Shown: positions 3,287 to 63,474 of the stretch, piece after piece
Layout: each line of letters opens with the position of its first letter
Position numbering within the stretch: position 1 is the first letter of the stretch
Assembly: GCA_020629155.1 (NCBI GenBank)
Contig: JAHDDW010000002.1
Coordinates: 124,001-188,000 of the forward strand
Source of the DNA: Acidimicrobiales bacterium
GTDB lineage: Bacteria; Actinomycetota; Acidimicrobiia; Acidimicrobiales; SZUA-35
Direction of reading: 5' to 3'
DNA length: 64,000 bases
The notes under the pieces: model-generated
What the model saw: the letters and a program-made list of their open reading frames with translations, nothing else
What the model was told of the DNA's origin: nothing
Databases searched by the model: none
Made by a program: the position numbers and the translations under genes

Positions 3287-3932
3287 ATGGAACGATTCGC
3301 CGAAAAAGATCTAGAGAAGTAGTACAAGCAATCAACTAGAAAACCCCTTGTTATCAGAGGGGCCAGACAAGTTGGGAAATCAACGCTAGTCCATAACTTT
3401 GCAACCAAACACAAACATACTTTGCATGAAATAAATTTAAAAAAACACACATATGATCGATTGTGGGATGCTGTCAACCTTGTCAGGAATCACACAGCTA
3501 CGAGAACAAGACTATAAACGGTCTGACTTTCTTTCAAAAGGAAATCTAGCTGAACAGTTCATCCATCAACATCTTCTCTATAGTATGGGCAGCAACGTCA
3601 GGCCTGAAAGTTTCTACTGGCTTCGTGAAGGCAAACAAGGCAATGCAGAAGTCGACTTTCTTCTTCAGATAAACATGCAGATCATACCAATTGAGGTGAA
3701 AGCAGGTTCTGCTGGCTCATTAAAATCACTTGTGCAGTTTCTGCGAAGTAAGGGTTCTACAGTTGCATTGCGATTTGATATGAATCCACCCTCTTCGCAA
3801 ACTATACGCCACACAGTGGAGCAGGGATTTGAAAAAATGCAACTAGTAGCAACACTGCTTTCATTACCGCTTTATGCTGTTGAGGAAACTAGACGTCTGC
3901 TCGAAACCCAAATCCGCCTAGAAACTTCTTAA
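3287..3932 (+). pseudogene. Remnant of a DUF4143-type AAA ATPase
   Basis: The N-terminal part (from ATG 3287) carries MERFAEKDL, then an in-frame TAG at 3320-3322, then the Walker A region PLVIRGARQVGKSTLV. About 25 codons later the frame breaks. From 3453 another frame encodes the C-terminal part of the same family: DCGMLSTLSGI, GNLAEQFIHQHL, YWLREGKQGNAEVDFL and IPIEVKAGSAG, the PD-(D/E)XK-like DUF4143 end. Roughly the middle two hundred residues of a normal family member are missing. So the gene has a stop, a frame change and an internal deletion, and cannot make the ATPase. Its stop overlaps that of the convergent MOSC gene. Confidence 0.85.
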
Positions 3933-18942: not shown

Positions 18943-19350
18943 TCAATTTGCTGAGGATGCAACGGCCCGAGCTGTTAGCACACAGCGGCTGGCCCGTTCA
19001 ATAGCTCTCGCAGCAACTGGCAACGCAATCTCGTCAGGCTCATACTCGCTTTTTGTCTTTAACGGCAAGAGCCGCTTAAGTTCCTTAGCCACTTTTTCAC
19101 CATCACGACCTGCTTGTCGCAGCAGCTTGACGACTTGTGAGTGATCCCCACCTTTTGCCCTCTCTCCAAGCCGAACGCCGCAAACTACATCAGCTGCGTT
19201 AATTGCAGAATGGATCGCTAAACTTGTCGCCGCAATAGTCCGTCCTGCAGCTAGCTCACTCTCGGCAGCCGACAGAAACTCTTTTGCCTTGCTCAGATAC
19301 GACGAAACTTGGCTAGCCATAACTTTTTTAGTTCGTATTGGCTTAGGCAT
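18943..19350 (-). CDS. HEPN domain protein (toxin of HEPN/MNT module)
   Basis: 135 residues of helical HEPN fold. LSKAKEFLSAAESELAAGR leads in; IHSAINAADVVCGVRLG is the core helix. The R-x(4-6)-H RNase motif is present as Arg64 and His70 (RAKGGDH). In type VII-like modules the HEPN protein is an RNase toxin, and the partner nucleotidyltransferase blocks it by modifying it. The start overlaps the partner's end by eight bases. Confidence 0.82.
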   Translation of the reverse strand: MPKPIRTKKVMASQVSSYLSKAKEFLSAAESELAAGRTIAATSLAIHSAINAADVVCGVRLGERAKGGDHSQVVKLLRQAGRDGEKVAKELKRLLPLKTKSEYEPDEIALPVAARAIERASRCVLTARAVASSAN

Positions 19351-19957
19351 GTTTAATCGCCAGCTCTTTTAACGAGTATCCATAGACAAGAATGCTCACT
19401 TCACAGATATCTTTCCACAACTGCGTAGGCTTTTCCATTCTGCCACCGATTTCACACTCATCTAACTCCAAAATATCCGCCTCGTTCCCAGTGCTCTCTT
19501 CTACAAAAGTAGAAATCGAATCAACAGTATGTAGCCACAGGTTTTCGTCGACCCCACTTGGACGAACAACGGCAATATCTATGTCACTGTCCACATCAGC
19601 TTCCCCAGTTACGAACGAACCAAAAATAGTTACGTTTGAAGGGGGTGCTTCCAGGGTGCTGATCTTCTGAGCCAGAATTTTTACAAACGTCTCACGGCTT
19701 TGCACTATCTCTAACAAAGGTGCGGCCAAGACATGTTTTTTGTTGAACATAAAAAGTGATGCAGGTGCGACTTCGCGCCGTATAAGCAAACCTAGATCAA
19801 CTAGTTGCGCCAGAACTCTTGAAGCTTGAGCGTTACTAACCGAGGCTAATCGAGCAATCGTACGTACGTTGAGCTCACTTTCAACAGTAACCAGTACGGA
19901 CAATATTTTGCCTTGAGAGCCAGGAATTATTGCTTGGAGCGGACGTGCAAAGTTCAC
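19343..19957 (-). CDS. Minimal nucleotidyltransferase with N-terminal winged helix (MNT antitoxin)
   Basis: 204 residues. Residues 12-65 form a winged helix (LSVLVTVESELNVRTIARLA, ASRVLAQLVDLGLL). The nucleotidyltransferase follows: Gly113-Ser114, Asp125 and Asp127 in GSFVTGEADVDSDIDIAVV fit G-S-x10-D-x-D. It probably AMPylates or otherwise modifies the HEPN partner encoded directly after it. The fused DNA-binding domain and the 44-bp palindrome 11 bases upstream together suggest autoregulation of the operon. Confidence 0.85.
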   Translation of the reverse strand: MNFARPLQAIIPGSQGKILSVLVTVESELNVRTIARLASVSNAQASRVLAQLVDLGLLIRREVAPASLFMFNKKHVLAAPLLEIVQSRETFVKILAQKISTLEAPPSNVTIFGSFVTGEADVDSDIDIAVVRPSGVDENLWLHTVDSISTFVEESTGNEADILELDECEIGGRMEKPTQLWKDICEVSILVYGYSLKELAIKHA

Positions 19958-42975: not shown

Positions 42976-43215
42976 AATGCTTTAGTCTATGCGGTCGTTT
43001 CCAAAATGAGCAGGTTCAGTTGAGATCTATGAGTTACTGATTTATGCCACTTTTTATGACGCAGACTGTTTCTGGCACCTTCCGAATTAATCGTACTAGC
43101 ATGACAAATCTCAACGGAGCACTGAAACCTTAAGAGACACTAACGCTCGAGTCGAGAATCAGGTAGCCTTTCGCCAATGGAAACTACCTTCAGCTTTTTC
43201 TCGCCTAAGTTATTG

Positions 43216-43271
43216 CATAATTCGAAATTTAATGTGCCAGGATTCCCCAACACATTAAATTTTGAATTATG
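43216..43271. repeat. Inverted repeat with 21-bp arms at the start of the four-gene operon
   Basis: Left arm 43216-43236 and right arm 43251-43271 are complementary except for one position, which is a G-U pair in RNA. The loop is 14 bases. The right arm ends five bases before ATG 43277. It may be an operator or an mRNA hairpin controlling translation of the first gene. No other feature stands out in 42976-43215. Confidence 0.8.
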
Positions 43272-43276
43272 ACAGA

Positions 43277-44812
43277 ATGGACTGGCGGTGTGACCCTAAT
43301 CTGTATGAGTTTTTCAGGACAAAACATTTTTGGTTTGGCGAAGAAGATGTCTGCATGGCCTGGCAGAACATGATTTCTAAATCATTAAACAAACAAGACA
43401 AGAACGATTTTCTTAAATCAAGCACCACTGCAAAGTTGTTGCGAGCACGAACTGCTTTATCGGGCAGTGACACTCAAACAGATGAGCGGTGGCCAAGCAT
43501 GTTTGACCATGATGTAATTTCTTTTGCACATGGCGAAGGAATACGCCGGCCTTACCCAGAGGCAATTAAGAACATGATTTCTGCTTTGCATGATCCAGAC
43601 AGTTTTCCAGTCGAGAACTACATGTTTCTTCAGCGACATGAAGAACTCGAAGATTGTATATCGCAAGAAATGCAAAGTATTGGCATCCCGATTGACCTGT
43701 CAAAAAATATTGTTATCGATGCTGGGACTTCACGTTTGATTACTGCAGCTTTAGACTATTTAACCAAACCAGGGGACTCAGTAATCACATTTCCAGGTTT
43801 TTATCATCCACTTGCATCCTGGTGTGACTATCGCAGTCTAAAGTTGGTCGTAGTTCCACAACGCAATGGTGATGATCTTATACCAAACGCTTTCGCGCTT
43901 GACCGTGCAATCCAAAATAATACAAACGTGAGAAAGCCAGTTGTGGTGTTATTCAACCCATCAATATCGGGCGTTGTATGCCGTGGTCAAACTTTATTGG
44001 AGATTGCTCGCGTACTTACTCGTTCTAATATATGGGCAATAGAAGATGCACTATTCGCTAATTGCTTGCCTGCAGGGAAAAGCAAGGTTCAGCGTCTTGC
44101 CCAAACAGAAGCTGCACAACAACTTCTTACAGTATCTGGGGCCAGTAAAATGCATGGTTTGGCCAACATGAGAATCGGGTGGGGTTGTGGGCCTGCCGAC
44201 TTAGTTAGGAACCTTCAAGATTCTATAACTTCGAGTTCCGCAACAATTCCACATCTATCGAAAGTAGCTGCATTAGGAGCCCTAAAAGCTTCTACGGTTT
44301 ACAAAAAAGCAAATCTTGAAGAAATTCAAAAACGCATAACCTTGCTTTCCTCAGAAATAAAGGAACTCGATTCTAAACTAAGATCTGCACACGGCATACA
44401 AGATCCCCTCATAACGGTGCATCATCAACCTATTGCTGGCCATTCCCTGTTGTTGGACTTTAACGGTTTCGTCAAACAAGTTACATCGGCTGAGACAAAA
44501 TTAACTGAGAGTGCGGATCTAACAAAGTGGATCTTAAAGCGATGCAAGGTGGCTTTTGCTCCTGCGCAATCACACGGATTTAACGGTTTTTTGTTAAGGG
44601 CAAATATCGCTTCTATCGGAACATCATTTACTTATTCAGCTTCTCTCGAAATAGAGAAAGCGTGGCGAGGAGAATGGAATAATGAGCATGAGAAACTTTT
44701 TGAGAAACCATTTACACGATGCCGCAATGAAATAAGGTCGGCTATCACAGATAGAATTACTCCAGTATTTCTGGAAGCACTCAGCAGCCAAAAACACAGT
44801 TGGAGACCATGA
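43277..44812 (+). CDS. PLP aminotransferase (class I/II), first gene of a four-gene pathway
   Basis: 511 residues from ATG 43277 (a TTG at 43262 lies in the hairpin). The first 80 residues are an extension; the fold type I core follows: VIDAGTSRLITAALDYLTKP, GDSVITFPGFYHPLASWC, VVLFNPSISGVV, AIEDALFANC (Asp), and the PLP Lys in SGASKMHGLANMRIGWG. The C-terminal part has GFNGFLLRANIASIGTSF, with the substrate Arg. Substrate unknown. No Shine-Dalgarno is clear. The ATG of the next gene overlaps its stop (ATGA). Confidence 0.85.
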   Translation: MDWRCDPNLYEFFRTKHFWFGEEDVCMAWQNMISKSLNKQDKNDFLKSSTTAKLLRARTALSGSDTQTDERWPSMFDHDVISFAHGEGIRRPYPEAIKNMISALHDPDSFPVENYMFLQRHEELEDCISQEMQSIGIPIDLSKNIVIDAGTSRLITAALDYLTKPGDSVITFPGFYHPLASWCDYRSLKLVVVPQRNGDDLIPNAFALDRAIQNNTNVRKPVVVLFNPSISGVVCRGQTLLEIARVLTRSNIWAIEDALFANCLPAGKSKVQRLAQTEAAQQLLTVSGASKMHGLANMRIGWGCGPADLVRNLQDSITSSSATIPHLSKVAALGALKASTVYKKANLEEIQKRITLLSSEIKELDSKLRSAHGIQDPLITVHHQPIAGHSLLLDFNGFVKQVTSAETKLTESADLTKWILKRCKVAFAPAQSHGFNGFLLRANIASIGTSFTYSASLEIEKAWRGEWNNEHEKLFEKPFTRCRNEIRSAITDRITPVFLEALSSQKHSWRP

Positions 44813-45672
44813 GAGAAACTCCAACCCAGCTAACTAATGCTAGAGAAATCATCACAAACTTCAAAGTTGTTTTCTTAGATATATGGGGAGTGCTAATTGA
44901 TGGACAAACAAAATTTCATCGTGCTGTTGAAGCCCTAAAAATCTTCACTGAATTTGGGATACAAGTCGTTCTAATCTCGAATACTAGTCGAACTGCAAGT
45001 CAAGTTATACATTTTCTAAGTTCGCTTGGGATAGAACAAGACCTCTACACCGGCGTCGTCACTGGAGGTGATCTGGCTTTAGAGAGTATTCGGAAACGTA
45101 CCTTAAATAACCGAAAGTTTGGCTCTAATGCTTTCATCTTGGGGACGCAAGCAGAAGGTAATTGGATCTCAGAGACAGGCCTCAGAATTGTATCAAAGAT
45201 CGAAGATGCTGATGTGATAATAAGCATGGGACTGCTAGAACAGGCACAGGTTTCACAAAAAATGTTGGATATGCTGCGCCAAGCTTCGGATCAAGACGTG
45301 CCCCTAATTGTTACAAATCCAGATGTTAAAGTTCGGATAGGAGACACAACCCACACAGGAAGCGGAGTCCTCGCCCCGATATACAAAAATCTAGGCGGCG
45401 CAACGTATTTGTTTGGTAAGCCTGCTGTCAATATTTTTCAGAATGCAAAACTAATAGCAGAAAAAAGTCGACAGCTGAAATCATTTGCCAACAATGAGAT
45501 ACTCACAATTGGAGACTCACTCAAGACCGATGTCTTGGGAGGCAAAAAATTTGGCACAGCGACACTTTTGGTAACTGCGACTGGCATACATGAAGTCAGA
45601 TCGAAGGAAAATTCTTCCTTCAATAAAAACGAAATCCAACCAGATTATTTGATAAAGGAATTGAGATGGTGA
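44809..45672 (+). CDS. HAD-superfamily class IIA phosphatase
   Basis: 287 residues, ATG 44809 overlapping the aminotransferase stop. Motif I is FLDIWGVLIDG, where Trp stands in place of the second Asp, as in TIGR01459-type members. Motif II is VVLISNTSRTAS; Lys is in FGKPAVNIF; motif IV is LTIGDSLKTDVLGGKKFG. A cap domain lies between residues 75 and 190. NagD-like enzymes remove phosphate from small organic phosphates. In this operon it probably dephosphorylates a pathway intermediate. Confidence 0.86.
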   Translation: MRETPTQLTNAREIITNFKVVFLDIWGVLIDGQTKFHRAVEALKIFTEFGIQVVLISNTSRTASQVIHFLSSLGIEQDLYTGVVTGGDLALESIRKRTLNNRKFGSNAFILGTQAEGNWISETGLRIVSKIEDADVIISMGLLEQAQVSQKMLDMLRQASDQDVPLIVTNPDVKVRIGDTTHTGSGVLAPIYKNLGGATYLFGKPAVNIFQNAKLIAEKSRQLKSFANNEILTIGDSLKTDVLGGKKFGTATLLVTATGIHEVRSKENSSFNKNEIQPDYLIKELRW

Positions 45673-46808
45673 AACAAGGCCGGAAAAAGATTCTTGTATT
45701 CGGCATCGGAGTAATAGGAGGCAATGTAGTTGATTTTTTATCGCGGATGAACGATCAATATCAAATAATAGTTGCATCTCGCAATACTGAGAAGATGCGC
45801 AAACGAGTGAACCTTAGCATCACTGTTGCTATGAGTTTAGGATTTAAACCTCAGATAGATTTTAGAAGAGTGGACGTATTTGACAAAACTCAAGTCATGA
45901 AACTTCTCAATGATTTTTTGCCAGATTTAGTTATCAATGCAACAAGTCTTCAGAGTTTCTGGGAAATTTCATTGCTGCCCAAACCTATATATCAAGAATT
46001 ACTTCAAGCCAACATAGGTCCATGGTTGCCGAACCATCTTTCGACAGCAAAAGCTGTTATGGAAGCTAGTATCGATTGCGATACTAGCCCTCTTGTTGTT
46101 AACGCCTCATTTCCTGATGCGGTTAACTGTGCACTTCACACACAGGGTTGTGCTCCAACAATCGGAGGAGGTAATATCGCTAACTTAGTGCCGACACTAG
46201 AGCGTATTATTTCGAAGGAACTTGACGTACCCCAAAGTCGATTACAAATCCGATTTGCGGCTCACCATGTAGCCTGCAACTCTATTTCAAGCATTGGATC
46301 TCCTGGGGATGCACCTTATATGCTTAAAATCTTAGTAGATGGCTGTGAAGTAGATTCAAAACTAAATCATCATAAAGTGTTCACAGGCGTAGTTAACGAC
46401 TATCGTCGTGTGCGTGGAATTGATGGACAAGCTGTTGCCTCTTCCAGCGTCGCTAGGGTGGCAAGTGCTTTGTTGGATGAAGAGAATAGGCACAGGCTCC
46501 ACGCCCCTGGACCACAAGGACTCGTTGGAGGGTATCCGGTGCGCATAGGTAACGGAAGTGTGAGTCTCGATTGTGGAACAGCATCAAACGAGAAGGAAGC
46601 TAAAAGGGTCAACCTTGAAGGTTCAGCAGTTGAAGGAATTAAGGAGATTAAACCTGATGGAACAATTATTTTTACCGACCGCGAGATGAGCGTTCTTCAG
46701 TATCATTTCGGATATTACTGCAAGAGTATGCATGTTAATGATGTTCACAGTGTGGCTACTGAACTAAGAGCAAAATACAATGAATTCAAAAGGAGATATA
46801 GCAAATGA
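45666..46808 (+). CDS. Saccharopine-dehydrogenase-like Rossmann protein
   Basis: 380 residues; it overlaps the phosphatase gene by seven bases. NAD(P)-binding ILVFGIGVIGGNVVDFLSR is at residues 9-27, followed by IIVASRNTEKMRKR, a possible NADP-favouring Arg pair. DLVINATSLQSFW and VVNASFPDAVNCAL are the next strands. The second domain has GGGNIANLVPTLERIISKEL, FAAHHVACNSISSIGSPGD and a C-terminal GLVGGYPVRIGNGSVSLD, ending with DGTIIFTD. The overall shape fits saccharopine or opine dehydrogenases, but no exact family is recognised. Confidence 0.7.
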   Translation: MVKQGRKKILVFGIGVIGGNVVDFLSRMNDQYQIIVASRNTEKMRKRVNLSITVAMSLGFKPQIDFRRVDVFDKTQVMKLLNDFLPDLVINATSLQSFWEISLLPKPIYQELLQANIGPWLPNHLSTAKAVMEASIDCDTSPLVVNASFPDAVNCALHTQGCAPTIGGGNIANLVPTLERIISKELDVPQSRLQIRFAAHHVACNSISSIGSPGDAPYMLKILVDGCEVDSKLNHHKVFTGVVNDYRRVRGIDGQAVASSSVARVASALLDEENRHRLHAPGPQGLVGGYPVRIGNGSVSLDCGTASNEKEAKRVNLEGSAVEGIKEIKPDGTIIFTDREMSVLQYHFGYYCKSMHVNDVHSVATELRAKYNEFKRRYSK

Positions 46809-47548
46809 ACTCTGAACATAGCAATAATTCAGCCAAGAACGAGAGTGTTGTAACTTTAAATAAGCTAGGCAGGACAACAACTGTCTTGAATGAAATCAAC
46901 CAAAGGTTTGTTGAAGAAGCACGACATGCTAACCGTCCTGTCCTCGACCTTGGGTGCGCTATGGGCGTTGCAACTTTGGCTGCTTTAGAAGTAGGGGCGA
47001 CAGTCTATGCAAATGACGTTGACGAGAACCACCTGAAGGCCATACAAGAATCAGTGTCGCTTTCAGCAAAGAAACGCCTCCACACTATATCTGGATGGTT
47101 TCCCGAAGATCTAGACTTTGAAGCCAACAGTTTCGATGTGATACACGCTTCAAATCTGCTCAACTTTTTGAGCGGACCAGAAATCGACAGAGGTTTACAA
47201 AGAATATATGAATGGCTATCACCTAACGGAATTTTTCTTTCCATCTCAGGTTCACCGTATGCGGCAAACATTAAGGGCTTCATTCCTGAGTATGAAAAAG
47301 CTGTAGCATTAGGCGAAACTTGGCCTGGTGAATGCGACAATCTTAAACAGTATTCCTCAGATCCGACCATATCTGAGCTGCCAGATAGACTACATCTGTT
47401 AGATCCCTATGTGCTTTCAAGATCAGCAAAACTTGCGGGCATGCACGTTGAGGAGTCGTATCTGTTTAACAGACGTGACACCCCAAAGTATATAGCGCTA
47501 GACGGACGTGAGAATGTAGTTTTAATCGCACGAAAAATTGGTGAGTAA
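46805..47548 (+). CDS. Class I SAM-dependent methyltransferase
   Basis: 247 residues, ATG overlapping the upstream stop (ATGA). SAM motif I is PVLDLGCAMGVATLAALEVG, then VYANDVDENHLKAI; the motif around FDVIHASNLLNFLSG is the post-II strand, and LSPNGIFLSISGSPYA is post-III. Last gene of the four-gene operon. It would methylate the product of the previous steps. A C-terminal piece with YLFNRRDTPKYIALDGRENV may shape the active site. Confidence 0.87.
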   Translation: MNSEHSNNSAKNESVVTLNKLGRTTTVLNEINQRFVEEARHANRPVLDLGCAMGVATLAALEVGATVYANDVDENHLKAIQESVSLSAKKRLHTISGWFPEDLDFEANSFDVIHASNLLNFLSGPEIDRGLQRIYEWLSPNGIFLSISGSPYAANIKGFIPEYEKAVALGETWPGECDNLKQYSSDPTISELPDRLHLLDPYVLSRSAKLAGMHVEESYLFNRRDTPKYIALDGRENVVLIARKIGE

Positions 47549-48966: not shown

Positions 48967-49010
48967 GAGCCCGAAGGCGGAGTTGAACCGCCGACCTACT
49001 CATTACGAAT
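48967..49010. repeat. Left attachment site (attL), 44-bp copy of the tRNA-Thr 3' half
   Basis: Identical to 52940-52983, which is the 3' end of tRNA-Thr through the anticodon loop, plus one base after the tRNA. Beyond position 49010 the match ends. The copy marks the distal end of a genomic island. Confidence 0.92.
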
Positions 49011-49144
49011 AACATCTAGCCTGTTTCGTCTAGTAGTGTGATTCGCGGAAACGCTCTATTTGGTAGGGTTTTGGGAACATGACTATCCGTCTATTTTGGT
49101 TTCGTAGTTTCTATTTGTAGATTTTAGGGCCAAAGAATGGCCAA

Positions 49145-49780
49145 ATGTTGATAAAAATAGATATGGCTCATGTGGAGAAAAGAGAATACTGGTCGCAGGC
49201 AAAGAAGCCAGACGGAACTTCTAAGCGGAAAAGGTTGAAACGCTGGTTTGTTATCGCAGAAGACTCAAGCATCAAGGGCAAGCGCAAACGAAAAAGCCTC
49301 GGCGGTTTTGACACCAAACGTGAGGCTGAACGGGCTATGCCTGAACTTTTGCGCAAATTTTATAGCGGGGAGATGGGCCAGACGAAAGAAACTTTCAAAG
49401 AGTACATAGATCGATATTTAGAACAGCGTGACCCTAAAGCTAACCCTGGGAAGAAACACACACTTAAACGTCGAACTCATCAAGATTACGAGCAGATGCT
49501 TAATCGATACGCCGTACCGCTTATGGATAGCAAGCAGTTATCAGCGCTTACAGCAAACGATTTCGACGACGTGTACCAGTACATGCACAATAAAGGGCTG
49601 AGGTTCTCCTCGATCCGCAAGATGCACGCTACCTGTCATAAAGTGATGGCTGATGCTGTACGAGATCGACTCATTCAAAGCAACCCGACTGACAGGTGTA
49701 TGAATAGCCGCTGTCGCAGCAAACAAATTCAAGTGCTGGCCAGCAGTTTAAAAGCTACTTCGAATCGATCCATCCTTTAG
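49145..49780 (+). pseudogene. Truncated tyrosine integrase
   Basis: The N-terminal arm-binding region (RKSLGGFDTKREAERAMPEL) and the core-binding SAM-like domain (YIDRYLEQRDPKANPGK, TLKRRTHQDYEQMLNRYAVP, FSSIRKMHATCHKVMADAV) are present. About residue 185 the similarity stops; the catalytic domain with Arg-His-Arg-Tyr is missing and the last codons are unrelated. So the island can no longer excise by itself. The gene is just inside attL, as expected. Confidence 0.88.
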
Positions 49781-50369
49781 TGACAGAAAAATCTACTAGT
49801 GAAACAAACAGCTCCCATAGTTTCTCCGAGCCATCACGAATAGCTGACTTTTTAGCAAGAAAAGCAGATCTACTTGTTCTATACTCCCCCCATGCTTTCC
49901 CATCATCAACACAGTTCACTAACGTTGGCATAAACATATCTATCGCTTGAGCATACTTAGCTTCTGCCGAGTCAGAAAATTCAAATTCAAACCAAATCGA
50001 TCGTACTGCTTGCACAGGTACCGTGCTGTCAGCAGGAAATAAATCATTCGCAGCTTGTAATTCCGCCGCAGCCTTTTCATCATAGTTATCTTCAAAAAAC
50101 TTGTAGTCACCAGCATTAACCTCGACAAGCTCATGCACAACAAGCATGCTAAGAACCTTCAAATGGTCTATCCCTTCTGGTTCATATTCGCGCAACAAAA
50201 GACATGCTAGCGATGCATGCCAACTATGCTCAGCTGAGTTCTCGCATCGCTGACCTTTAAGAACTTTGGTATGACGTTCAACTGCTTTGAGGCCTTCACA
50301 CTTAACAAGAAGCTTCAACGCCTCATCAGTTAACAAAACATTTTCAGAACTCATTGATTTCCCCTTCAA
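49755..50369 (-). CDS. HD-domain phosphohydrolase (YfbR/HDDC2-like), island cargo
   Basis: 204 residues. RCENSAEHSWHASLACLLL is the first metal-binding part (His), then VVHELVEVNAGD, where the usual HD pair is His-Glu rather than His-Asp. The rest (helical, ending RSIWFEFEFSDSAEAKYAQAIDMF) resembles the HD_3 family, whose YfbR members are 5'-nucleotidases of deoxynucleotides. The substitution may alter metal use. Last gene of the island operon; overlaps the PurH-like gene by 26 bases. ATG starts exist at 50369 and 50354. Confidence 0.82.
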   Translation of the reverse strand: MKGKSMSSENVLLTDEALKLLVKCEGLKAVERHTKVLKGQRCENSAEHSWHASLACLLLREYEPEGIDHLKVLSMLVVHELVEVNAGDYKFFEDNYDEKAAAELQAANDLFPADSTVPVQAVRSIWFEFEFSDSAEAKYAQAIDMFMPTLVNCVDDGKAWGEYRTSRSAFLAKKSAIRDGSEKLWELFVSLVDFSVTKGWIDSK

Positions 50370-50955
50370 TAAAGTGTCGATTTAAAAAGCTATAATACTC
50401 ATGTAGAACAACTGCTGCCTTGCTGGCTAAATACTTACGGTATCTTTTGTCATCATCTGTACTGCTAAGATGAGCTGAGCACTCCTCGTAATCAGTTTGG
50501 CATGTTAATACAAATATTGATTGATAATTTCTTATCGCATTAGTTAAAAGAGCTGGACCCCCTACATCAACCCACTCCAAAGTTCTTGCCAGGGCATCGT
50601 CTGAAGTGAAATCTTTTAAAGGGTAAAGATTACTGCACACAAGCCCAATTGGAGGTATGCTCTTCTGAGTAATTTTGAATCTTGCTTCATAATCAGGTTC
50701 CTGTCGGAAAAACCCTTCGTGGACACAGTGCTGCAAGGTTTTTGATAAGTACTCTGTGCCTTGCAAAGGAGAGATTTCCTCAATAGATACAACTTCTAGG
50801 TTTTTGTTTCTGAGGTAACGGTATGATCCTGATGAAGCGATCAGATCGAATCCACTTTCTAAACAGCTTTCAGCAAGTGTTTCGATTCCAGTTTTGTCGT
50901 AGCAACTGAACAAAGCTCGTTCTCTTGATTTCTCTTGTTTACGCATACTTTTCAT
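50344..50955 (-). CDS. Stand-alone PurH-like IMP-cyclohydrolase domain, island cargo
   Basis: 203 residues, resembling only the N-terminal MGS-like domain of PurH. ALFSCYDKTGIETLAESCL, IASSGSYRYLRN, SKTLQHCVHEG, VCSNLYPLKDF and VDVGGPALLTNAIRNYQSIF correspond in order to the DKTG, STGGT, KTLHP, NLYPF and GGP-x-x-AAKN motifs. Several key positions differ: SSGSY for STGGT, KTLQH for KTLHP, and Arg for the Lys of AAKN. It probably binds an IMP/FAICAR-like or other purine nucleotide. The transformylase domain is absent. Confidence 0.8.
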   Translation of the reverse strand: MKSMRKQEKSRERALFSCYDKTGIETLAESCLESGFDLIASSGSYRYLRNKNLEVVSIEEISPLQGTEYLSKTLQHCVHEGFFRQEPDYEARFKITQKSIPPIGLVCSNLYPLKDFTSDDALARTLEWVDVGGPALLTNAIRNYQSIFVLTCQTDYEECSAHLSSTDDDKRYRKYLASKAAVVLHEYYSFLNRHFIEGEINEF

Positions 50956-52190
50956 CTATTCTTAGTCGGGTACGGTGCATAATGTCTTTTTTGACTTTGA
51001 GATGGACCCTTAGGGATCAGCGGTTTAAATCTTTGAGGAGGCTGTCGATATTGTCGGGAAGAAACCTTTGGATTAAGAACAGCATATAGACTAGTTAATT
51101 TTGAGGTGCAGCCAGTACAGATATCGATTGGATTCCTAGGAACAACTTCGTCGATTGTGAACTTTTTTATGATTTCAACACAAGCACGACAGTACCAAGA
51201 TTTGTGCTCGACCTCATTCTTTGAACGCATTCTTTCAATGACAAGGCCTTGTGTATCTTTGGCTCGAATTGGACGATGCGGAACATTCGGAGGCAATATG
51301 CACATATCACCCTCATATAAAACTAGCTGCCTAATTTTTCGAGACTGGATAAATTCAATTGTGACTGACCCTTTAAGCTGCACCAGGACCTCTGGAGATG
51401 GGTTATCATGAAAAGCAGTTTCATACGAAGGTCCTCCCACTAGCATTACTACCATTTGGTCTTCATGAATAGTTTCGAAAGCTTTTTCAGGAACCAGCCA
51501 ATTATTTAGTGTTCTTGTGACTGGAGCGTCAGATTTTTTAACTATCTCAGGCGACGCTTGAGATAGTTGTGCTGACTTTGAAGATAGTCTCTTCAAAATT
51601 GGATCTATGTTTGCTAATACACGAAATACATCGACATTGCGAGACTCATAAGATCCATCAAAAGGAAAAAAGTAGTAGCCCGGATGTTTACTCCATAGGC
51701 TCCGCAATCGAGATTCAAGTTTGATTGTTGCTTCTATATCTGGATCAGAAAACTTTTTTTGCTGCTTATCTAAATCTCCTCCTAGATGGAGAACATAATC
51801 ATATCGAGTTAAATCCATTTCTAGAGAGCGGCCAAATATTCTTTCATAGTCCTCGTGGCTTTCAAGATAGGAACCATTATCCACTGTTCCTCTATCCATA
51901 AGCAAAAAAGGAATGTTCGCTTGAGACGCAACTTCAACCCAATAGCGTTCAAACGCTATACGCGTTTCTTGAATCACTTGCATGAAACTAATATCGTCTG
52001 CTCGTGATTGTGTTAGCGACTCCCAACCTTTAGCGCTGAGACCGCTATCTACAAACACAGTTGGGACCTCTGGGACCACTAAAAAAATTTGTTTCTTAGC
52101 GGCCTTTTGAATTTCAAGTAGTTGATTGAGAAACCATGACTTTCCAGAACCTGGCACGCCAGTAAAAACAATCTTTTGCACAGAAGTCAT
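50952..52190 (-). CDS. P-loop NTPase fused to a HAAO-like cupin, island cargo
   Basis: 412 residues. N-terminal NadR/Ttd14-like (AAA_28) NTPase: GVPGSGKS (residues 11-18), FVDSGLSAKGWESLT and LLMDRGTVDNGSYLE. Residues 225-375 are like 3-hydroxyanthranilate 3,4-dioxygenase: iron ligands His261, Glu267 and His305 keep the family spacing (6 and 44), ILPPNVPHRPIR and QGLVIERMR match, and Cys334, Cys337, Cys358 and Cys361 form the rubredoxin-like site of bacterial HAAO. Position 257, where HAAO has a substrate-binding Arg, is Glu. The tail is basic, Pro/Gln rich. It overlaps both neighbours by four bases. Confidence 0.85.
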   Translation of the reverse strand: MTSVQKIVFTGVPGSGKSWFLNQLLEIQKAAKKQIFLVVPEVPTVFVDSGLSAKGWESLTQSRADDISFMQVIQETRIAFERYWVEVASQANIPFLLMDRGTVDNGSYLESHEDYERIFGRSLEMDLTRYDYVLHLGGDLDKQQKKFSDPDIEATIKLESRLRSLWSKHPGYYFFPFDGSYESRNVDVFRVLANIDPILKRLSSKSAQLSQASPEIVKKSDAPVTRTLNNWLVPEKAFETIHEDQMVVMLVGGPSYETAFHDNPSPEVLVQLKGSVTIEFIQSRKIRQLVLYEGDMCILPPNVPHRPIRAKDTQGLVIERMRSKNEVEHKSWYCRACVEIIKKFTIDEVVPRNPIDICTGCTSKLTSLYAVLNPKVSSRQYRQPPQRFKPLIPKGPSQSQKRHYAPYPTKNR

Positions 52191-52921
52191 TGGTGTACAT
52201 ACTTTTCCACGAATTTATCCCATGCTCTGATTCTATCTGGACACTTTCTTACTAAAGCCTGGTTTTCAGATGAGCTTAATGAAATATACCTTTGTTCCGC
52301 AGAAGGCATTTCTACAACGTTTTGAATGTCAACTCCTGCTAAAGAAATACTGGTGGTTTTTAAATGATCGATGTATGAAGCCATTTCCTCGCATGACCCA
52401 TCATCAGCTATGAAAATTGGGACGTCGCCTTTGTCTAAGATATCAGTCAGGTTCTGAATTTTAACTAACTTATCTAGGTCGATTGGCGAGGTGCCAGGGA
52501 GCAGGAGATCTGGCTGGTAAACTGAGCAGTCCACAAGGACACTATCGTTTGGGCTAAGAATATTGTTCAAGTAGTCAAAATACTCTTTGAAGTCGATCTG
52601 CTGAAGACCAATTGTGGCAATAACCGAATTATTAAATCTAGTCCTAACGGAATCTATAAAGTTCTTGTTAACTCTATGCTGGAATTGAAGAATGAGATTA
52701 CTTTTATCTAGACCGTACAACTTCACGACCTCAGATATTCTCGTTGGATCCAAAATCTCTTCGAATAGTAGTACCCTTTGAATTTCTTGGAAATACTGGT
52801 TAGTTTCGCGTATAGCGTCAACAAATCGTCTGCTTATAGTTTTTGGGTAGAAGAATGGCCAAATACTCAGTCTGTTGAATTCAACTAGGAGAAGCGCCGA
52901 ATCTTTCAAAACCCTAACCAA
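52187..52921 (-). CDS. Unknown protein, first gene of the island operon
   Basis: 244 residues, assumed to start at TTG 52921. The frame is open further upstream into the tRNA but has no ATG or GTG, so the N-terminus may be truncated or use a non-standard start. Alternating strands and helices (LLLVEFNRLSIWPFFY, SVIATIGLQQIDFKEYFDYL, DSVLVDCSVYQPDLLLPG, VPIFIADDGSCEEMASYIDH) suggest an alpha/beta, possibly Rossmann-like, fold. No motif identifies it. The start lies 20 bases after the tRNA 3' end and the stop overlaps the NTPase-cupin start. Confidence 0.6.
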   Translation of the reverse strand: MVRVLKDSALLLVEFNRLSIWPFFYPKTISRRFVDAIRETNQYFQEIQRVLLFEEILDPTRISEVVKLYGLDKSNLILQFQHRVNKNFIDSVRTRFNNSVIATIGLQQIDFKEYFDYLNNILSPNDSVLVDCSVYQPDLLLPGTSPIDLDKLVKIQNLTDILDKGDVPIFIADDGSCEEMASYIDHLKTTSISLAGVDIQNVVEMPSAEQRYISLSSSENQALVRKCPDRIRAWDKFVEKYVHQ

Positions 52922-52939
52922 TAGTAGGGATTTTAACCA

Positions 52940-52983
52940 GAGCCCGAAGGCGGAGTTGAACCGCCGACCTACTCATTACGAAT
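52940..52983. repeat. Right attachment site (attR) inside tRNA-Thr
   Basis: 44 bases identical to 48967-49010. It covers the tRNA from just after its 3' end to the anticodon loop, where tyrosine integrases commonly cross over. The island between the two copies is about 4 kb. Confidence 0.92.
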
Positions 52984-53013
52984 GAGTTGCTCTACCAACT
53001 GAGCTATCCGGGC
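52941..53013 (-). tRNA. tRNA-Thr (CGT)
   Basis: A complete cloverleaf on the minus strand. Acceptor GCCCGGA/TTCGGGC (one G-U), D arm GCTC-GAGC, anticodon loop TTCGTAA (anticodon CGT), T arm GGCGG-CCGCC with TTCAACT. CCA is not encoded. The 3' half was restored by island integration. The island operon follows on the same strand. Confidence 0.96.
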
Positions 53014-62220: not shown

Positions 62221-63474
62221 CTAGTATTCACGCAAGATTTTCTGCGTCATCTTATTGATAACCTGTTCGACTCTTTGCAGCGCAGGATACGGGCCATGCT
62301 TTTCTTCAAAGTCGGTCTTCACTATGTCAAGGTGTCGTCTAATCGAAGTCCCCATTTTTGTTACTAACGCATCAAAATACGAGGGTTTAATACGGCACTC
62401 TTTCGCAAGGGCATGCATATGTTCCTTGGTTATTCTTCCAGGATCAAACTCGCCGCCAATCGAAAAAGCCATTTTTGCATCAATGTGATCGATCGCTCGC
62501 GTGCACACCAGATCATAAAAAGGAGCCAAAGAAAGACTGCCGTTTTCGCCGTAAAGCAACGATATATTTTTGGCATGGCCATCAGAGTTGCCGCACAATA
62601 AATTAAAGACTAACCACTGCAGCAAGCTTTCACTGTCATCTATTGGGTTCGCACACACTTCCCTCACAAGTTCTAAGCATTGAGCAAATGAAGGACCGTT
62701 AAATGCCTGATACTTGTTATTGTGACTCAAGCCAAGAGCCTGACAGAAGTCTTCCTGATGCCTGCGCTGGACGGTGGCTCCGTTTTGGAGCCGGTCATAG
62801 CGTTCAACCAACAAATATCTGTTCGATTGAGATCCATAGAAACCACAAGCAACTACTGGCAGTGCGCAGGATCGGGCAAGTTCTGTTAAAAAATATTCAT
62901 ATGCTGGCACGTTAGAATAACCGGCAATTTCAAATTTTATAATATGGTTCGAAGCTGCTGATTTTTGAGGTAAATAAAAGTTTGCACCATCGTAATAAAC
63001 TGCTAACTTCTCTTGAGCTCCAGCAAGAGAAAGCCTAGGCAGGTTCCCTTGTGCCCATGGTTTGAGTGTTGACCCTTTAGAAAATAGTATGTCTTCAAAC
63101 TGTTGATCATTCAATTTTTTATACGAACCATCAGTCGTGTTTTGTTCTTTCTCTGGGAGAATAGTTAAAGCTCCAGCACATTCACTGCCTAAAGACCGCA
63201 GTAAATCAAAATCTGTATCTGGAATCTTTAGATTTCTGCAAAGACGATCCCTTGCATTGCCCTCGGGTAACAAGTTGCTGAAGAAACGGTGGGCTACCCC
63301 CTCAGAACTTGAATAATAAGTTGTTTTAAGAGGCATTCGTTGAGAAATGCCATATCCAGATTTTTGCCATGACTCCGCATACCTGAAATCCATTATTCCT
63401 GAAACATCACGAGTTATAGACCCTACTATTTGGTCCTGCATCCAGACAGACAACTCGCTAGTGTCACTCATCAA
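62221..63474 (-). CDS. hipA: HipA-type Ser/Thr kinase toxin
   Basis: 417 residues. The N-subdomain (SVWMQDQIVGSITRDVSGIM) and Gly-rich SLAGAQEKLAVYYDG, then the ATP loop, RYLLVERYDR, the catalytic NLLCGNSDGHAKNISLLYG (N-x-D-x-H-x-K-N), and LAPFYDLVCT, the DFD-type metal site. HipA phosphorylates GltX and induces dormancy when unneutralised. It overlaps hipB by 11 bases. Confidence 0.93.
   Translation of the reverse strand: MMSDTSELSVWMQDQIVGSITRDVSGIMDFRYAESWQKSGYGISQRMPLKTTYYSSSEGVAHRFFSNLLPEGNARDRLCRNLKIPDTDFDLLRSLGSECAGALTILPEKEQNTTDGSYKKLNDQQFEDILFSKGSTLKPWAQGNLPRLSLAGAQEKLAVYYDGANFYLPQKSAASNHIIKFEIAGYSNVPAYEYFLTELARSCALPVVACGFYGSQSNRYLLVERYDRLQNGATVQRRHQEDFCQALGLSHNNKYQAFNGPSFAQCLELVREVCANPIDDSESLLQWLVFNLLCGNSDGHAKNISLLYGENGSLSLAPFYDLVCTRAIDHIDAKMAFSIGGEFDPGRITKEHMHALAKECRIKPSYFDALVTKMGTSIRRHLDIVKTDFEEKHGPYPALQRVEQVINKMTQKILREY

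Follow-up and report, generated by a model that had tools for sequence, protein, structure and literature searches.

Genomic islands that target tRNA genes are an already known type of integrative element, and several of the enzyme families that matter here have been characterized in other settings. The 3-hydroxyanthranilate 3,4-dioxygenases (HAAO) and the NadR-type kinases both connect to NAD metabolism. A stand-alone IMP cyclohydrolase (IMPCH) domain is found in ForH, in the context of formycin biosynthesis (PMC8724604). The present analysis concerns a 4-kb island at a tRNA-Thr gene of an Acidimicrobiales bacterium (Actinomycetota; SZUA-35) that combines relatives of these proteins. The window, i.e. 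the entire stretch of 64,000 nucleotides that was analyzed (GenBank assembly GCA_020629155.1, contig JAHDDW010000002.1, positions 124,001 to 188,000), belongs to a contig 253 kb long in a draft genome that totals 3.17 Mb. The cargo of the island consists of three intact, overlapping genes (B, C and D) and a broken one (A'), and there is about an even chance that it is a mobile operon that stems from a biosynthetic cluster of the nucleotide or nucleoside type, has been trimmed, and is either retuned or in decay (Table 1).

The island and its operon

The tRNA-Thr island itself is real. As had been noted in the original prediction, which was made from the nucleotide sequence alone, two identical copies (44/44 bp) of the 3' half of the tRNA-Thr gene delimit it; the tRNA gene is intact, and no third copy of this direct repeat is present in the window at up to three mismatches (0 in 100 shuffles). 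Next to these copies, all at no more than about 140 bp from them, lie a 14-nt direct repeat (AAGAATGGCCAAAT) and an 18-nt inverted repeat. When the two 150-bp ends were shuffled 1000 times with dinucleotides preserved, the direct match was never equalled and the inverted match was equalled twice; no pair of segments from the interior of the island reached either of them. These end repeats look like the arm-type sites of an integrase.

The integrase itself is a remnant that consists of the Arm-DNA-bind_4 and SAM-like domains only, and its frame stops where gene D ends on the opposite strand. The catalytic domain is missing from the ORF, in agreement with the original prediction, and no remnant of it was found in the other frames, which were read by eye. 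Because of this loss, the element is now stuck, and mobilization in trans appears unlikely given that the only other integrase relatives found in the genome are about 30% identical. In a genome of the same genus (G001), holB is followed by tRNA-Thr (L045:3405-3478) and the island is absent; this locus is an imperfect empty site because the genes beyond the tRNA gene differ. The loss of the integrase domain, the end repeats and the island-free sister genome jointly support the predicted mobile origin and present fixation of the cargo. The reduced GC content is not limited to the interval between the repeats and begins already near position 43000.

Genes B, C and D have full-length open frames, coding-like GC content by codon position and overlapping starts. 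The originally proposed domain composition, an NTPase-HAAO fusion, a PurH-like domain and an HD hydrolase, stands, the respective families being AAA_28 plus 3-HAO, the N-terminal domain of PurH, and HD_3. Each of the three proteins keeps the signature of its fold, but has at least one canonical active-site residue changed. The proposal of a four-gene operon holds for these three tightly overlapping genes and fails for the first one, which is a fragment, so that part of the pathway is lacking from the island. The operon points the same way as holB and tRNA-Thr, and no terminator was predicted between the tRNA gene and the operon, so that read-through would be the most probable route of its expression. 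No promoter-like site was seen upstream of the operon.

The cargo genes and their relatives

The first gene had been taken for an unknown alpha/beta protein. Comparison of ORF A with Pfam, NCBIfam, PADLOC and PHROGs yielded nothing beyond chance, and a tblastn search yielded two relatives, both aligned only through their C-terminal part (about 190 amino acids of the Streptomyces protein): a 952-aa 'HAD family hydrolase' (OG520_RS00915; 35% identity, 2e-26) encoded on plasmid NZ_CP108736.1 of Streptomyces sp. NBC_00984, and a 939-aa ORF (7e-14) of MT835751.1, an unannotated human-gut scaffold filed as phage. The two large proteins align end to end at 27%. The Streptomyces protein has an N-terminal HAD domain, the motifs of which are common to the gut protein, and both contain a stretch, VLL.DNNVTTF.TL, that resembles the loop binding phosphoribosyl pyrophosphate (PRPP), a motif-like match that is best against a ComF-like phosphoribosyltransferase (PRTase). 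Their C-terminal domain aligns collinearly with TrpF, i.e. phosphoribosylanthranilate isomerase (180 columns in hhalign, with an E-value of 0.00096 in a single comparison and a probability of only 22%), the traits looked for being a barrel of the same strand order, KxC in strand 1 and an Asp in a late strand; the copy in the window retains only the portion of the barrel after strand 1.

Gene A' has no ATG start and is fused to DNA of the element end, the repeats of which overlap its first ~28 codons, and the missing ~700 residues are absent from the whole genome, with no convincing relative in two congeners. On these grounds, we read gene A' as a 5'-truncated remnant of a ~950-aa HAD/PRPP-loop/TrpF-like fusion. 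The view of it as a complete alpha/beta protein was discarded, since it matches only the C-terminal part of the fusion, the remainder of which is not in the genome.

On the Streptomyces plasmid, the fusion sits between a 396-aa protein and a kinase of the PfkB type, beyond which comes an efflux transporter; on the gut scaffold, two AAA_28/dNK-type kinases precede the fusion, and a 373-aa relative of the 396-aa protein follows it. Kinase-type NTPases, then, recur beside the fusion, at the family level only. The family of 373–396-aa partner proteins (L033:5492-6613 and L032:8531-9721) has no convincing Pfam match, and a PDB profile search with it produced nothing useful. When the A family and this partner were sought in 396 genomes of the phylum and 395 of the class, with one of these searches run without a positive control, only A itself and two weak matches at chance level were detected.

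In the cupin half of gene B, the iron ligands His/Glu/His, Arg99, Glu110 and both C-terminal CxxC pairs (four cysteines, rubredoxin-like) are retained. The position of Arg47, which we take to be the residue that binds the substrate carboxylate, is occupied by Glu, unlike in all 11 relatives compared and in the HAAO structures of the PDB, and Asp49 is changed to Ala. The protein falls below the NCBIfam equivalog cut-offs for HAAO (EC 1.13.11.6), with 104.1 of 220 and 98.1 of 145.95 bits. The changes in genes B and C relative to the HAAO of C. metallidurans and the PurH of E. coli, respectively, are visible against the PDB chains as well. In the literature searched, no description of an AAA_28-HAAO fusion was found.

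Gene C encodes a 203-aa protein without the AICAR transformylase domain of full PurH. In the numbering of PurH, it keeps Lys66, Tyr104 and Asp125, and has Leu in place of Arg64 and Arg in place of Lys137. The genome encodes complete purH and trpF elsewhere, and because it has a full-length purH of its own, a housekeeping role of gene C as PurH is ruled out. A split PurH was considered and rejected as well: the one PurH among the relatives that seems to stand alone (genome G088) has its remainder in another frame, in contrast to the window. In that PurH (L020:8020-8538), the split follows the IMPCH domain and stems either from a frameshift or from an error in sequencing.

Gene D starts with ATG at 50354 (an alternative TTG is at 50369), is preceded by a good Shine-Dalgarno sequence, and encodes the doublet HE where all six relatives compared have HD. 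A relative of gene D on a plasmid of Streptomyces sp. NBC_01471 (L063:734-6573) is located beside genes for an RdgB-type purine NTP pyrophosphatase, a methyltransferase, a P450 and a nucleoside hydrolase, a stretch that resembles a nucleoside natural-product cluster.

Table 1. Features of the tRNA-Thr island (coordinates in the window).
Feature	Position	Strand	Basis or remark
Distal att (attachment) copy, 44 bp, equal to tRNA-Thr 3' half	48967..49010	+	Repeat search
18-nt inverted repeat, left arm	49056..49073	+	89% match to right arm
Arm-type-like 14-nt direct repeat AAGAATGGCCAAAT, left end	49133..49146	+	Exact match
Tyrosine-integrase remnant, Arm-DNA-bind_4 and SAM-like domains only	49145..49780	+	PF14657, PF13102; phrog_1 positions 117-255 of 611
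Gene D, complete HD_3-family phosphohydrolase, HD to HE	49755..50354	-	PF13023 112.8 bits, 1-165 of 165; PDB 3kh1
Gene C, stand-alone IMP-cyclohydrolase (MGS-like) domain of PurH	50344..50955	-	PRK00881 108 bits, positions 3-193 of 510; PurH and ForH 6nko
Gene B, AAA_28 P-loop NTPase/kinase-like domain and 3-HAO cupin, C-terminal CxxC...CxxC	50952..52190	-	PF13521 41.2 bits; PF06052 94.1 bits
Gene A', read as C-terminal piece of HAD/PRT-motif/TrpF-like barrel fusion	52187..52921	-	tblastn; homology clear from residue ~28-50 on (below ~52840)
Arm-type-like 14-nt direct repeat AAGAATGGCCAAAT, right end, inside first ~28 codons of ORF A	52851..52864	+	Exact match
18-nt inverted repeat, right arm	52907..52924	-	89% match to left arm
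att copy, tRNA side (tRNA-Thr 3' half)	52940..52983	+	Repeat search
tRNA-Thr (anticodon CGT), intact, integration target	52940..53013	-	ARAGORN; directly downstream of holB

A proposed pathway and its rivals

The modified-nucleotide chemistry originally suggested for the island is favoured: the enzyme families speak for it, and the nature of the broken gene does so more strongly. As the four-gene set is known from a single genome, we can only infer the pathway that these genes would share. A tRNA-Thr-targeting integrative element would have delivered part of an operon that makes or remodels a small molecule akin to a nucleotide or nucleoside, and trimming of the element would have removed from the first gene all that precedes the later portion of the TrpF-like barrel. 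The ancestral PRPP-using, TrpF-like, HAD-containing protein might assemble an aromatic amine in ribosylated form and dephosphorylate it; the iron dioxygenase resembling HAAO, i.e. the cupin half of B, might oxidize the amine or open its ring; gene C could close a ring by dehydration, as is thought for ForH; and the phosphorylation state would be set by the kinase-like AAA_28 half of B together with the HD enzyme D. The substitutions, namely Glu for Arg47 in B, Leu for Arg64 and Arg for Lys137 in C, and HE for HD in D, are compatible with altered substrates, and equally so with decay. It is rather unlikely, if conceivable, that all this amounts to a previously undescribed mobile system in which the fusion supplies an aromatic amine in ribosylated form, the kinase-fused HAAO-type dioxygenase opens its ring and the IMPCH domain recloses this ring into a new heterocycle, the product being a novel sort of nucleoside or nucleotide, with the Streptomyces plasmid and the gut scaffold carrying other versions.

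Several observations count against an origin of the cargo in a biosynthetic cluster. A second copy of the B-C-D set was found in none of 198 relatives, plasmids, phages and 79 candidate stretches of GTDB contigs, and because of this, the joint function of B, C and D rests on the overlap of the genes in one genome. The models PF00697 (TrpF), in the Streptomyces and gut records, and PF00156 (PRTase), in the full-length relatives, have no match, so that the two resemblances are remote rather than family memberships; PDB profile searches with the barrel gave weak matches only, mostly to other TIM barrels, and a single-sequence AlphaFold model of gene A was unusable (pLDDT of 38.6). None of the AAA_28 domains encoded on the gut scaffold is closely related to that of gene B, and the non-canonical active sites of all three intact enzymes are explained just as well by decay. 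Co-occurrence of the four domains elsewhere, for which the original prediction had proposed a search, was not found: the fetched flanks of the Streptomyces and gut fusion genes contain no relatives of HAAO, IMPCH or HD, and the linkage of the four domains is therefore either specific to this element or extremely rare. Pattern scans of viral and genome contigs for B, C, A1, A2 and A3 yielded nothing; the scans of genome contigs used short exact patterns, and the genomes sampled numbered a few hundred per group, such that absence is weak evidence. The literature searched contained no description of HAAO together with IMPCH, of TrpF-like nucleoside clusters or of a HAD/PRPP-loop/TrpF-like family, and formycin genes (the C-glycoside synthase ForT, paralogues of Pur enzymes) were not recognized among the genes of the island, no search having been aimed at them.

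The main rival to the biosynthetic operon is decay, a reading that we consider doubtful overall: the island would be junk, a stranded fragment in which the altered residues and the truncation of gene A and of the integrase are stages of a single erosion. Truncation on both sides of the island, the alteration of canonical catalytic residues in B, C and D alike, and an operon without a promoter-like site upstream are what such erosion might leave behind; full-length, overlapping frames with coding-like codon-position GC, the good Shine-Dalgarno sequence of gene D, and the preservation of the His/Glu/His ligands and the four cysteines of HAAO and of Lys66, Tyr104 and Asp125 of PurH argue against it. 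Phage defence was part of the original prediction; an anti-phage system in which a signal in the form of a modified nucleotide is produced or destroyed seems very unlikely to us. The mobile, tRNA-adjacent location and the combination of a kinase-like NTPase, an HD hydrolase and a purine-type enzyme would suit such a system, and PRTase/HAD modules for a 'nucleoside-like' signal or metabolite are proposed for Ter systems in a passage of PMC7824862 that cites Anantharaman et al. 2012. PADLOC, however, gives only weak and unconvincing matches to the cargo proteins, no effector (nuclease, membrane protein or NADase) was recognized within the island, and no known defence system is seen next to it, the HipA kinase being about 9 kb and the HEPN/MNT pair about 29 kb away; phage defence as the function of the cargo was rejected for want of support from PADLOC. 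Highly improbable, finally, is a set of enzymes for the salvage or catabolism of tryptophan/NAD intermediates, in which gene B would supply a kynurenine-type ring cleaver and a NadR-type ribonucleoside kinase (AAA_28), accompanied by a nucleotidase. The link of both families to NAD metabolism and the retained iron ligands and rubredoxin-like cysteines of gene B argue for it; the Glu at position 47, unlike in the 11 relatives, the stand-alone IMPCH domain, which has no role in NAD synthesis, and an island with neither kynureninase nor quinolinate PRTase argue against it.

Neighbourhood and comparison with known systems

Just outside the island, a low-GC operon of overlapping genes (43262-47548, plus strand) encodes a class I/II aminotransferase, a HAD hydrolase, a saccharopine-dehydrogenase-like NAD(P) protein and a SAM methyltransferase; it looks like another acquired small-molecule pathway. 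Elsewhere in the window, there are overlapping genes for a HEPN protein and an MNT-type nucleotidyltransferase with a winged helix, a pair that is similar to toxin-antitoxin modules (18943-19957, minus strand), a HipA-like kinase gene with HipA_C and Couple_hipA domains (62221-63474, minus strand), and an apparently truncated DUF4143-type fragment that corresponds to no more than the C-terminal portion of a larger AAA protein (3453-3932, plus strand).

If the cargo indeed derives from a biosynthetic cluster, it would belong to an unrecognized family of mobile genes for nucleotide-like biosynthesis, marked by the ~950-aa HAD/PRPP-loop/TrpF-like fusion, which has no Pfam coverage beyond HAD and is present on a Streptomyces plasmid and in mobile DNA of the human gut. 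The kinase-fused HAAO with Glu in place of Arg47 would then have an altered substrate pocket that is open to testing, and the 'unknown' first gene may be a fragment that points to the ancestral pathway.

With the Ter-linked modules, as outlined in the cited passage, the island has the general idea in common, namely that mobile elements encode a PRTase together with a HAD phosphatase for the production of a nucleotide derivative; unlike there, no Ter or Ter-PRTase Pfam family was matched here. Compared with HAAO (PF06052; PDB 1yfu, 1zvf), gene B shares the iron ligands, Arg99, Glu110 and the CxxC pairs, and differs by the changes at positions 47 and 49, the AAA_28 fusion and a score far under the NCBIfam cut-off. 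Gene C departs from PurH (the IMPCH half, e.g. 4ehi) at positions 64 and 137, and has the fold and size class of this half and of ForH of formycin biosynthesis (PDB 6nko), as well as the stand-alone architecture of the latter. The loci of OG520_RS00915 and of the MT835751.1 ORF differ from the island in the HAAO, IMPCH and HD genes, which their fetched flanks lack, and resemble it in encoding homologues of gene A, there full-length, on mobile DNA, next to kinases and the 373–396-aa partner. As a whole, the island differs from other tRNA-targeting integrative elements with a tyrosine integrase in its integrase without a catalytic domain, its size of only 4 kb and its cut gene A, and is like them in the direct repeat of the tRNA 3' half, the integrase beside one att copy, the arm-like repeats at both ends, the low-GC cargo and a sister genome without the island.

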